This document shows positions 1,215 through 5,462 of a DNA stretch of 8,915 nucleotides, in pieces; positions within the stretch are counted from its first letter, which is position 1, and every line of letters begins with the position of its first letter. The stretch covers positions 1-8,915 of the forward strand of contig JACOVN010000062.1 in NCBI GenBank assembly GCA_016177315.1. Reading direction: 5' to 3'. Made by a program: the position numbers and the translations under genes. The notes below the pieces were generated by a model. The model did no database searches, was not told the origin of the DNA, and saw only the letters and a list, made by a program, of their open reading frames with translations. This DNA comes from Candidatus Woesearchaeota archaeon (GTDB lineage: Archaea > Nanobdellota > Nanobdellia > Woesearchaeales > UBA12501).

Positions 1215-2699
1215 CTACCCTTTCACATTCCCTATGGGCTTCAAGCCAACGACAGGCTTAGATAACCCAGCCTTATCAATAGCTTCAACAACCTCAGAAA
1301 TATTCTTGTACGCAAAGCCTGCCTCTTCTGCCAAGCCGGACATGGAAACTGCCCTGACATAAATGCCTCTTTTTTCCATTTCCTGCTGCAGTTTTTCCCC
1401 TCTGACTGCATGCTTCGCTTTTGTCCTTGACATGGTCCTGCCAGAGCCATGAGCTGTAGAGCCAAAGGTTTCTTCCATTGCTTGTTCTGTGCCAACCAGC
1501 AGATAGCTGCCTGTCTCCATACTCCCTCCTAAAATAACAGGCTGTCCTGTCTTCTGGAACAGTGGGGCTAATTCCTCATGTCCTGGAGGGAAACTTCTGG
1601 TTGAGCCTTTGCGATGCACAAGAACTTCCTTTTTCTTTCCATCGATCTTGTGCTCTTCTTTCTTCGCAATATTGTGCGCAACATCGTAGATTAAGTGCAT
1701 CTCCATCTCCTCCGGAGTTTTTGCAAACACCTTTTGGAATCCTTCCCTGATTCTGTGCAGAATCACCTGCCTATTTGCAAATGCCATATTCGCTGCACAC
1801 GCCATCGCAGCATAGTAATCCTGTCCTTCCTTGCTCTGGTAGGGAGCGCAGGCCAATTCTCTGTCGAGAACCTGGATGCCATACTTCGGCATGACCTGGT
1901 TAAAAATCTTCAAATAGTCTGTGCCAATCTGATGGCCAAAGCCCCTTGAGCCGCAGTGTACCATGACAACAATCTGCTCTGGAAAAATCCCAAACTGCTT
2001 TGCAATCTCCTTATTGATGATGTTTCGCTCCTTCACTACTTGAATTTCCAAGTAATGATTGCCGGAACCTAATGTTCCTATCTGATCCATGCCTCGCTGC
2101 CTTGCCTTATCGCTTACTTTCTCTGGATTTGCACCTTTAATCATACCATATTCCTCTATCCGTTCGATATCTTCCTTCCAACCATAGCCGTGCTCAACAC
2201 ACCACTTTGCTCCCTTTGTCATGACCTCGTCAAACTCTGCCTTGCTCACTTTCACAAATCCCTTACAGCCCACTCCTGCAGGTACAAGCTTGAACATGGT
2301 ATCCACTAAGAGTTTGAGTTTTGGCTTGACGTCATCGTAGGTCAGATTGGTCGTTACAAGCCGCATGCCGCAGTTGATCATTCGTCATAAGTCGTATTAA
2401 CTTATGAAATCGAATCCAATGCCGCCTGGGCTTATAACGCCAGTTTCCAGATCAAATGCCGCAACTCCCCCAATGGGGAATCCATAGCCCCAGTGGCCAT
2501 CAGGCATACAATAGGAATACTTTTGAATGCCCGGCAATGTTGCAACATTTGTTACCTGATTGAAAACGCCTTCATCCATCTCTTGGACGAGTTTCTCTGT
2601 GCCAAAGATTCGTGCAGGGACTCTCATGCCTGCTTTAAAAGAGACAGGCAATTCCCATACATACTCCCCCACTTGCTTCAGCTGTGCTGGCGGTGCCAT
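1215..2699 (-). CDS. rtcB: RNA-splicing ligase RtcB, coding sequence interrupted by a 30-nt BHB intron
   Basis: RtcB joins RNA 2',3'-cyclic phosphate or 3'-phosphate ends to 5'-OH ends using GTP and Mn2+, and is the archaeal tRNA-splicing ligase. Exon 1 is 2699-2409 (97 codons, ending GGIGFD). Exon 2 is 2378-1215 (387 codons, starting INCGMRL). Joined, they give 484 residues, close to the roughly 481 of Pyrococcus horikoshii RtcB. Visible active-site residues in spliced numbering are D97 and C100 (DINC), GNH H205, HCGSRG H238, DVAHN H332, the guanylylated-His motif TAHGSGR at H407, and the C-terminal VKG lysine. Unspliced, translation would add F-I-S and stop at TAA 2399-2397, before the Cys. 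An ATG at 2381-2379 opens the second half but lies within the intron, so I do not take it as the start. The start at 2699 is supported by a TATA box 26 nt upstream. Confidence 0.93.
1219..1247 (-). repeat. Right copy of the 29-bp direct repeat, the true 3' end of rtcB
   Basis: This copy lies inside rtcB and encodes its last residues, [10 protein letters not shown], ending just before the stop codon at 1215-1217. It matches bases 1-29 at 27 of 29 positions. The two copies are in the same orientation and bracket the MNT-HEPN operon, so the bracketed unit is about 1.2 kb. Confidence 0.8.
2379..2408 (-). other. Predicted 30-nt archaeal pre-mRNA intron with a canonical BHB (rtcB)
   Basis: On the minus strand the rtcB frame reads GGA TTC GAT, then 30 extra bases with in-frame TAA and TGA stops, then ATC AAC TGC. 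Removing exactly 2408-2379 restores G-F-D-I-N-C. The RNA folds as follows. The outer exon helix pairs 2422-2415 with 2377-2370 (6 of 8 pairs). The central 4-bp helix is UUCG (2414-2411) with CGAA (2384-2381). The two 3-nt bulges are AU/U (2410-2408) and UG/A (2380-2378). The inner helix UCAUAAGU (2407-2400) pairs with ACUUAUGA (2392-2385), and the loop is 7 nt (2399-2393). Archaeal splicing endonuclease cuts after the second base of each bulge, which falls exactly on the two junctions that restore the protein. Confidence 0.9.
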
Positions 2700-2798: not shown

Positions 2799-4721
2799 TC
2801 AAGGACCGCCTGTGCAGCACTGCTGGGTAAGGGAAGGACACTGCCCAGAAGCAGGGAATGCCTCTGGCGGGCAGCCTCCTTCTGCACAGAATTCTCCGGC
2901 TGCCTCATCACAGGGGTTTTCTATGCTCAGCTCAGAGAATGTGCAATCAGACAGGCAGAAGCCAGATTGTGGCCCTTCGACAGGAGCAGCAGGATCGCAT
3001 TCCTCTCCCTCCTCAACAATTCCATTGCCGCAGACCGGGCATGGGGCATCGCACGCATCGCCGATGCCATTATTATTGCAGTCAGCCTGGTCTGAATTTG
3101 CAACACAGGGACAGTTATCACTCTGGTCAGGCACCCCATCTTTGTCCACATCATCATTTGGAGGCACACAAGCAGTTGTGCAGCCTGTTGTGCCGGCATC
3201 GTTCCAGCCATCCGGCGTATCGCATTGGTTGTTGTCGCCCGTAATGGGACCGGCCGGTTCCTCGACAAAGAAATCACCATTCTCGCAGCTATTGCCGTTG
3301 TAGCAGACCTGGTTATCCCGTATGTCTGTATTGCTCCATCGAATGAGATGGATGCCATATTCTTCATTGTTGGTGATGGTATTCTTCGCTATTACATTGT
3401 CTTGGCTATCTCCCAGCAGAAGATTATCTGCCAGTATGCCCTCTGTATTGCCTTGTATGATATTATCTGTGATGGTACTGAATCGGAGCGTCTTCCTAGC
3501 GATCAGCCTCATACCTCTCTCATGATTTTGGATGGTGTTCTGGAAGACTTGCGTGTTTTCCGTATTAGTTAGTATGATACCATCGCTTGCGGGAGCACCC
3601 GGACCCATAATGGTGTTTTGATACACCTTGATGTTTTTAGATGGTGGGGTGGATGTCTTAGCCAAGGCAAAAGAAATACCTTGGTAATTTCCGATAAGCG
3701 TGTTTTCATATATTTCACCATTGACGAGGTTACCTATTCCGAAGGATCTTACGTCTCCCTCTATCCCTATGCCTTTGCCATTCTCACGAATGACGTTGTT
3801 TCTGATAATGGTTGGGTTTGGTCCTCCAGCAATGAATGTCATAATACCATTACTGTTATCCTCTACAAGATTGTTGTAGATTTCATTTCCTCCTTTCTCA
3901 CCGCTTCCTTCATAACTCGAAATAGTTATGCCATGCCACTGTTTTCTGACAGTATTCTGATACACTTTGTTGAAATTGCCGTTGATACAAATACCGCAGG
4001 TCCCAGTATCCTCTACAGTGTTAGCGTAAATATTATTGTTTTCTCCACCGGTGGTAATGCCATATGCAAATGTATCCGTCATGGCAATCACATTATCATG
4101 GATCATGGAATTGCTGACTCCCCAGAGTTGCATCGCTCCGGCTGTTCCTCTGGACGTTGCTCTGACTGTGTTGCCATAAATCTGGTTGTTGCTACTTGGT
4201 TCAAGCATGTAGATGCCAAGATCGTAGCCTTCAATGACACAGTTTCTAATAATAATATTGTCAGAGAGGGCATTTTTCTGGCTGGCATGGATGCCAATGT
4301 GTATGGGCACATCATTCGTCCCAGTCAATGTATGTCCCTGGCAATCCACAATCCTGTTGCTCTTGCACACATCGATGCCCATAGGGAAGTTATAATCCTG
4401 CGTAAGGATGAAATCCTTGTCTCGCACATCACAGCCATCTACTGGATTGTCTGCACATTCAGGGTCAGTATCCTGGCAGAGTTCGGAAGAGCCTCCGTGT
4501 CCAAACACGATGGGTTCGGGCTGAGGTATCCCCGCCTCTATACCGAAGGTATCACCTTCTCCGCCCAAAGCTGTCTGGAAGGCCTGCCCGCCAATGTTCC
4601 TTGCAGGAAATGTTCCTCTAACACTAAAGAACCCGGTGACTACCACTATCAAAGCGATGGCCAGAACTCCATACCATGCAGCCCTCTTTTCGTCCATTGG
4701 TTTCCTCAGGAGCTTTGTCAT
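2799..4721 (-). CDS. Membrane-anchored beta-helix surface protein with thrombospondin-3-like and Cys-rich C-terminal modules
   Basis: A 640-residue protein. Residues 17-34 are a single hydrophobic segment after a basic N-terminus, either a signal anchor or a signal peptide. Residues about 100-480 contain many NxI..N.I..N..GI units typical of right-handed parallel beta-helix (PbH1/NosD-like) repeats. Residues 523-558, with DVDKDGVPDQSDNC and NNNGIGDACD, are calcium-binding thrombospondin type-3-like repeats. Residues 563-576 (CGNGIVEEGEECDP) match the DUF4215-like Cys-rich motif. The last 38 residues form a six-Cys tail that is also found as an orphan fragment at 5355-5462. It most likely acts outside the cell in binding polysaccharide or other cells; no catalytic residues are identifiable. 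The start is ambiguous: ATG 4721, or ATG 4697 (MDEKRAAWYG), which is about 29 nt from an ATTTAAAA box at 4722-4729 and would be leaderless. Confidence 0.8.
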   Translation of the reverse strand: MTKLLRKPMDEKRAAWYGVLAIALIVVVTGFFSVRGTFPARNIGGQAFQTALGGEGDTFGIEAGIPQPEPIVFGHGGSSELCQDTDPECADNPVDGCDVRDKDFILTQDYNFPMGIDVCKSNRIVDCQGHTLTGTNDVPIHIGIHASQKNALSDNIIIRNCVIEGYDLGIYMLEPSSNNQIYGNTVRATSRGTAGAMQLWGVSNSMIHDNVIAMTDTFAYGITTGGENNNIYANTVEDTGTCGICINGNFNKVYQNTVRKQWHGITISSYEGSGEKGGNEIYNNLVEDNSNGIMTFIAGGPNPTIIRNNVIRENGKGIGIEGDVRSFGIGNLVNGEIYENTLIGNYQGISFALAKTSTPPSKNIKVYQNTIMGPGAPASDGIILTNTENTQVFQNTIQNHERGMRLIARKTLRFSTITDNIIQGNTEGILADNLLLGDSQDNVIAKNTITNNEEYGIHLIRWSNTDIRDNQVCYNGNSCENGDFFVEEPAGPITGDNNQCDTPDGWNDAGTTGCTTACVPPNDDVDKDGVPDQSDNCPCVANSDQADCNNNGIGDACDAPCPVCGNGIVEEGEECDPAAPVEGPQSGFCLSDCTFSELSIENPCDEAAGEFCAEGGCPPEAFPASGQCPSLTQQCCTGGP

Positions 4722-5354: not shown

Positions 5355-5462
5355 CTACACGCAGCACTCTTGCGTAACAGAAGGACATGCTCCAGGAGTT
5401 GGAGAAGCTCCAAGTGGACAGCCTCCTTCTACACAGAAGTCGCCAAGGTCCTCGCAGGGTGC
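5355..5462 (-). pseudogene. Orphan C-terminal fragment of a paralogue of the beta-helix surface protein
   Basis: On the minus strand this reads APCEDLGDFCVEGGCPLGAS, then PTPGACPSVTQECCV and a stop (5357-5355). It aligns with the last residues of the protein at 2799-4721 (NPCDEAAGEFCAEGGCPPEA onward). All six cysteines and about 60% of residues are shared. At DNA level, 5419-5438 and 2872-2891 match at 19 of 20 bases. The rest of that paralogue (beta-helix, thrombospondin repeats) is absent; the upstream bases are AT-rich intergenic sequence and the TATA box of the plus-strand operon. The frame is open back to an ATG at 5516, giving 53 codons, so a small Cys-rich peptide cannot be excluded. 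A decayed gene remnant is simpler. Confidence 0.75.

Follow-up and report, generated by a model that had tools for sequence, protein, structure and literature searches.

The rtcB locus and its insert

The window, that is, the whole stretch of 8,915 nucleotides analysed here, is a contig of a Candidatus Woesearchaeota genome (G000) that comprises 908,737 bases in 167 contigs and is 79% complete. It carries on its minus strand (2699 to 1215) a gene for the RNA ligase RtcB, the single match to this protein in the 79% complete assembly. The gene is interrupted between D97 and I98 by a 30-nt insert (2379-2408) with in-frame TAA and TGA codons, so that an unspliced message cannot yield the protein. 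Removal of the 30 nt leads to an uninterrupted RtcB of 484 amino acids with its GFDINCG motif restored, and no further stop breaks the gene in the window. A spliced protein alignment blind to splice signals located the 30-nt insert at GFD^INC, and no alternative placement gave an equal DNA or protein outcome. An intein at this site is excluded, as the insert is only 30 nt long, with two stops and no open frame.

Since the alignment of exon 2 starts at residue 96 of the P. horikoshii RtcB, the insertion point corresponds to the junction of residues 95 and 96 of that protein. The insert separates the metal ligands Asp95 and Cys98; in the P. horikoshii enzyme, one Mn ion is bound by Asp95, Cys98, and His203, and the other by Cys98, His234, and His329 (PMC10630183). 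In the protein database, the top match of the joined RtcB was a 388-aa product identical to exon 2 (80% of the query covered), and the identity of the others among the best 120 of 7,615 matches did not exceed 76%; therefore, there was no uninterrupted close copy among these best 120. The insert ends with an ATG, which gene callers would give as the start of exon 2 (1215-2381, 388 aa), and a 388-aa product of this type exists in the protein database.

Table 1 Positions of the rtcB exons, the predicted intron, and its pairing elements in the window.
Feature	Positions	Strand	Remarks
rtcB exon 1, 97 codons, M1 to D97	2409..2699	-	Pfam RtcB, residues 48-97 on profile 1-48
Predicted BHB intron, 30 nt, in-frame TAA and TGA	2379..2408	-	protein alignment, fold
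rtcB exon 2, I98 to stop	1215..2378	-	Pfam RtcB profile 50-426; P. horikoshii RtcB alignment
Outer exon helix, 5' strand GCATTGGA	2415..2422	-	6 of 8 pairs with 2370-2377
Central helix, 5' strand TTCG, exon 1	2411..2414	-	
5' bulge ATT; predicted cut 2409/2408	2408..2410	-	
Inner helix, 5' arm TCATAAGTT	2399..2407	-	
Inner helix, 3' arm GACTTATGA	2385..2393	-	5-nt loop at 2394-2398
Central helix, 3' strand CGAA, intron	2381..2384	-	
3' bulge TGA; predicted cut 2379/2378	2378..2380	-	
Outer exon helix, 3' strand TCAACTGC	2370..2377	-	

Neither a tRNA (ARAGORN) nor an Rfam match at gathering score was found in the window. A 29-bp direct repeat (93%) of the rtcB 3' end, at 1-29 and 1219-1247, flanks a two-gene module made up of 568-1170 (PADLOC PDC-M05A, with traces of HTH and nucleotidyltransferase domains) and 29-571 (no family). 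The arrangement looks like an insertion of this module at the end of rtcB in which the tail of the gene was duplicated; the second copy is cut off by the contig boundary. In addition, an 84-nt piece (2814-2897) of the 3' end of a NosD/beta-helix gene (2799-4721) recurs at 5361-5444 with 71% identity, like a decayed duplicate.

A bulge-helix-bulge fold at both junctions

The insert and its flanks form a canonical bulge-helix-bulge (BHB) in which the standard cuts, after base 2 of each bulge, excise exactly the 30 nt. The central helix TTCG/CGAA consists of 4/4 Watson-Crick pairs and is bordered by 3-nt bulges on opposite strands; it is continued on one side by nine inner-helix pairs, eight of them Watson-Crick and one a G-U pair, and on the other by an outer exon helix with 6 of 8 pairs. 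The initial annotation, which had read the insert as a BHB intron in the rtcB mRNA, is supported by these sequence data. Its position between D97 and I98 and its in-frame stops were borne out by the spliced protein alignment and by translation, and we reproduced the 4-bp central helix (UUCG/CGAA, bulges AUU and UGA), the outer pairing, the cuts restoring GFDINCG, and the agreement to the base of two lines of evidence, fold and restored protein. The inner helix was also found, with nine pairs in place of the 8 bp claimed.

The predicted RNA fold of a 70-nt stretch had an energy of -20.8 kcal/mol (z -3.36), a value as low being reached by 0 of 200 shuffles. When the letters of the insert were shuffled with the exons fixed, a 4/4 central helix arose in 6,814 of 300,000 trials, and together with an inner helix of at least 8 pairs in a single one of the 300,000. 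A scan of both strands of the whole window with insert lengths of 20-40 retrieved only 4 of 368,130 placements in which all central pairs were Watson-Crick and the inner helix had at least 7 pairs, namely the insert itself and, in three registers, a single long hairpin at 2866-2868. This hairpin, on the minus strand inside the NosD-like gene, shows BHB-like pairing and interrupts no frame.

Inserts in rtcB of other Nanoarchaeia

RtcB was matched in 314 of the 352 genomes of the window's order. Among 378 genomes drawn evenly from the class, some of them from the order, 357 had a match. Within the order, 66 and 80 genomes, taken up for matches with internal stops, split matches, or lower-scoring ones, were re-searched and DNA was retrieved, with 80 of the 108 single-match genomes covered; order genomes in the first listing were judged by stops alone, a procedure that could miss stop-free inserts. 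Outside the order, 76 genomes with split or lower-scoring matches were re-searched and the corresponding stretches retrieved. All insert frequencies given here are thus lower bounds. Placement relied on protein-to-DNA alignment, with inserts allowed in any phase and blind to splice signals. Before counting, we dropped inserts shorter than 20 or longer than 45 nt as well as G269, G072, G073, G067, G314, and the second copy of G047, whose calls resembled insertions in the protein, poor alignments, or a stretch of N; a possible 18-nt rtcB insert in G201 and a 10-nt cbf5 call in G543 were doubtful and also excluded. The aligned rtcB genes of G276, G317, G347, G049, G586, G422, G192, G143, G298, and G299 had no short insert.

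The single case of the initial annotation is not isolated: counting it, at least 66 rtcB inserts of 23-33 nt are present in no fewer than 52 Nanoarchaeia genomes, 35 of which belong to the order and 17 lie outside it. Two inserts occurred in the same genome in 14 of the 52, for example in JACPJQ010000004.1 (Candidatus Woesearchaeota, G114). Read through from exon 1, 62 of the 66 lead to a stop, and only 19 have a length that is a multiple of 3. A comparison with related genomes, proposed together with the initial annotation, thus argues in its favour: the inserts are not conserved as protein (47 of the 66 lengths are not multiples of 3), and at the window's site and at neighbouring ones the relatives keep the BHB fold with changed stems.

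The fold coincides with the cuts defined by the protein. For the 43 inserts with unambiguous placement, the central helix was 4/4 at the protein-defined cuts in 35, and in 0-2 when both cuts were shifted together by -6 to +6; shifting the 3' cut alone by +1 left 10 of 43, and all other one-sided shifts none, counts that are not probabilities because related genomes are not independent samples. After a fold-guided choice among equivalent placements, four of the 66 being set by the fold and not by the protein, central pairing was 4/4 in 52 inserts and reached 3/4 or better in 65, while four or more inner-helix pairs were present in 61; fewer than four central pairs remained in 14, one of which has only two. 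Two protein placements failed the fold, the second insert of G105, which we re-placed by hand, and the first of G129, re-placed by the fold-guided step.

A ribosome that skips the insert, as in the translational bypass of phage T4 gene 60, would make RNA splicing dispensable, and the stop near the start of the insert together with a stem-loop would fit such a process. However, none of the 66 inserts has a last in-frame triplet identical to the take-off codon, and the BHB geometry with 3-nt bulges is kept at both junctions, so we consider bypass extremely improbable.

Grouped by position and phase, the 66 inserts make up eight classes, spread over ~31 codons around the metal-binding motif. The most populated is the Tyr of HxGY (30 inserts), followed by GH^W (13, with 3 more in the Trp codon following it), the Tyr of GGxGY (8), and FD^IN, the class of the window (7). 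The Ile after FD^IN holds 2, the Asp codon and the Asn codon 1 each, and the remaining one is the G105 insert mis-placed by the alignment, whose hand placement fits the Ile class. A ninth class consists of a near-identical 12-nt insert with a TAA at the Ile of GGI-GFD in G226, G108, G113, and G496, with a 4/4 central helix and outer pairs and without inner helix; such 12-nt inserts in GGI-GFDINC lie at loci L073, L096, L097, and L236.

This diversity bears on the alternative that rtcB is split into two proteins, one of 97 residues and another translated from the ATG at the end of the insert. In favour of this, the ATG that ends the insert in the window is in frame with exon 2, and the 388-residue database product is identical to exon 2. 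Nevertheless, the same ATG lies within the 3' bulge and helix required by the BHB, the division would fall between the metal ligands Asp95 and Cys98, and inserts at other sites have other phases. We regard a split gene as highly unlikely and retain the intron reading.

Selection, turnover, and shared targets

The exons of interrupted rtcB genes are under purifying selection: of nine pairs of such genes, eight gave dN/dS values of 0.036-0.064 and one was saturated. An assembly error or a decaying gene, which the fragmentation and 79% completeness of G000 might suggest, is contradicted by this constraint, by the conserved pattern of such inserts in 52 genomes, and by the lack of any other stop in the rtcB of the window; its probability appears negligible. 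The fold is kept by compensating changes among relatives: at the five sites with at least 3 inserts each, the first six inner positions were paired in 83-94% of cases with their own stem arms vs 62-78% with arms swapped between inserts, the values for the 7 inserts at the window's site being 83% and 62%.

Empty sites in sister species are precise. In 11 sister pairs, 14 of 14 junctions line up, and the 21 nt shown to either side are not shifted; gaps are present in 4 of the 14 empty-site alignments of 90 nt. A quick maximum-likelihood tree of 123 RtcB proteins (47 carriers and 76 intact) requires at least 24 changes of the intron-free state, 19 of them forced by well-supported branches. Carriers G105, G527, G496, G587, and G246 and the intact loci L247 and L274, where the motif was not found by script, are outside this tree; four spliced rows kept one stop (X in the tree), three of which revealed the 12-nt inserts. 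Because the introns come and go between sister species, their gain or loss seems to be precise and possibly RNA-mediated.

The window's site shows a sequence preference, TTCGAY being present in 7 of 7 carriers vs 6 of 41 intact genes, which may reflect either target choice or constraint. Likely inteins interrupt the GFDIN^C motif at this site in other genomes. In 25 genomes of the order re-search, rtcB has open frames of 913-1038 aa, and the Intein_splicing domain was detected in 4 of 4 proteins tested. Likely inteins at GFDIN^C include those of L070, L072, L227, and L236, and they occur together with BHB-type inserts in G527, where an additional 30-nt insert lies beside the intein, and in G496.

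Other genes and the splicing machinery

We searched three other protein families in 80 genomes (34 carriers, 46 not), matching RpoB in 73, SecY in 77, and EndA in 73, and saw no such insert in any of them. SecY and EndA rows contained no stops, and the three one-stop RpoB matches showed no length change (G111) or lay at contig ends (G159 and G164). Split matches (RpoB in G130, G159, G169, and G302, EndA in G171 and G284, SecY in G206) partly span contigs. By contrast, in a set of 80 genomes made up of 52 carriers and 28 others, Cbf5 was matched in 69; we retrieved five suspicious cases, two of them without such an insert (G543 and G383) and three (G279, G510, and G554; loci L282, L284, and L285) with inserts of 18-21 nt and 4/4 central helices. 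These are located in the codon of the catalytic GTLD aspartate, in phase 1, and match the crenarchaeal cbf5 intron in codon and phase (PMC2738675); the one in G279 has almost no inner helix. Having been found by the same method, they provide a positive control and show that rtcB is not the sole host.

The genome of the window encodes an EndA fragment (E 1.5e-12) at the start of contig C42, where it is cut by the contig end. Since 8 of its 11 tRNA matches are 84-124 nt long, these genes probably contain introns; BHB-like cuts sought in the 8 longest gave a mixed picture, three of these having no inner-helix pairs. The EndA of carrier G203 had 3iey as best PDB match, whose second chain, NEQ261, is the Nanoarchaeum equitans enzyme. 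Four carriers (G205, G279, G129, and G206) had no EndA match, perhaps through genome incompleteness.

Relation to known introns and splicing systems

The closest parallel is the crenarchaeal cbf5 intron (Watanabe 2002; Yokobori 2009, PMC2738675), which shares with the rtcB inserts the BHB at the junctions, the stops or frame loss if unspliced, the location in the active-site codon region of an RNA-maturation enzyme, and the lineage-specific presence. RtcB inserts differ by their gene and phylum, by their eight to nine positions vs one and their frequent occurrence as two per gene, and by a host gene whose own product would carry out the final ligation. Splicing has been shown at the RNA level for cbf5; for rtcB it is predicted from sequence. 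Introns of archaeal tRNAs, which EndA excises before RtcB ligates the exons, have the same 3-nt bulges and 4-bp central helix, and the 12-nt rtcB form without inner helix resembles their relaxed bulge-helix-loop type (PMC6379350), but the rtcB exons code for protein.

In the XBP1/HAC1 system, mRNA is spliced by IRE1 and a tRNA ligase, which is RtcB in animals. XBP1 is similar in its short mRNA intron (26 nt), spliceosome-free removal, and joining by RtcB (PMC10630183); however, these messages are cut by IRE1 at two stem-loops and not by EndA at a BHB, and they do not encode the ligase. RtcB inteins interrupt the same motif, GFDIN^C, but are in-frame protein inserts with an Intein_splicing domain that are removed from the protein. 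Finally, the HVO_1309 substrate is also an mRNA cut by EndA, although in its 5'-UTR, without interruption of the coding frame (PMC7714728). That 2020 study names the cbf5 mRNA as the only further BHB intron reported in archaea until then and adds this 5'-UTR case of its own, in line with the initial statement that few archaeal genes, such as cbf5, have introns of this kind. The initial annotation also gave no case in rtcB as known; likewise, searches of the open-licence PMC literature, which exclude preprints, listed no paper on an intron in rtcB.

A ligase probably needed for its own making

By its sequence and by analogy, the insert is very probably an archaeal pre-mRNA intron of the BHB type, likely cut by EndA, with the exons joined by RtcB, so that the ligase would be needed for its own making. 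EndA would cut the rtcB pre-mRNA at both bulges and RtcB would then join the two exons, steps that are likely from what is known of archaeal tRNA and cbf5 splicing. An unspliced rtcB would be without one part or the other of its active site, so that in carriers the production of RtcB would call for RtcB itself, and, because dozens of relatives carry similar inserts, this dependence is likely across these cells. It would also entail a positive feedback in which low RtcB leads to less RtcB being made, such that enough ligase must be inherited; this consequence is less certain than cleavage and ligation.

The role of the loop can be seen in two ways. We give an even chance to the idea that mRNA introns settle by preference in rtcB throughout the Nanoarchaeia and that a self-closing loop, opened and closed repeatedly at the active-site codons of this gene, controls its own supply. 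Slightly better than even are the prospects of the idea that the introns are real and rtcB is merely where they persist, with a dependence on RtcB devoid of regulatory role: like inteins, introns would sit on codons where imprecise loss kills the gene. Their turnover on the tree, the inteins at the same GFDIN^C motif, and the TTCGAY of the window-site carriers, which resembles a target preference, all agree with simple persistence. Against it, the genes hit, RtcB and (in three genomes) Cbf5, both act in RNA maturation, while RpoB, SecY, and EndA (three families only) are not hit; moreover, the dependence exists regardless if RtcB is the sole ligase. Turnover and the target shared with inteins speak for a loop that is merely tolerated, the two RNA-maturation hosts for a possible use as a control.

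In practical terms, gene finders working on these archaea can present RtcB, and Cbf5 in some of the genomes, as a broken or truncated gene. With respect to their biology, rtcB joins cbf5 as a second coding gene with predicted BHB introns, of which it has many, and it encodes the enzyme that would finish their splicing. With sister species that differ in these introns, it offers a test bed for intron gain and loss in archaea; it could likewise serve to study self-dependent gene expression and the reasons why introns and inteins settle on active-site codons.
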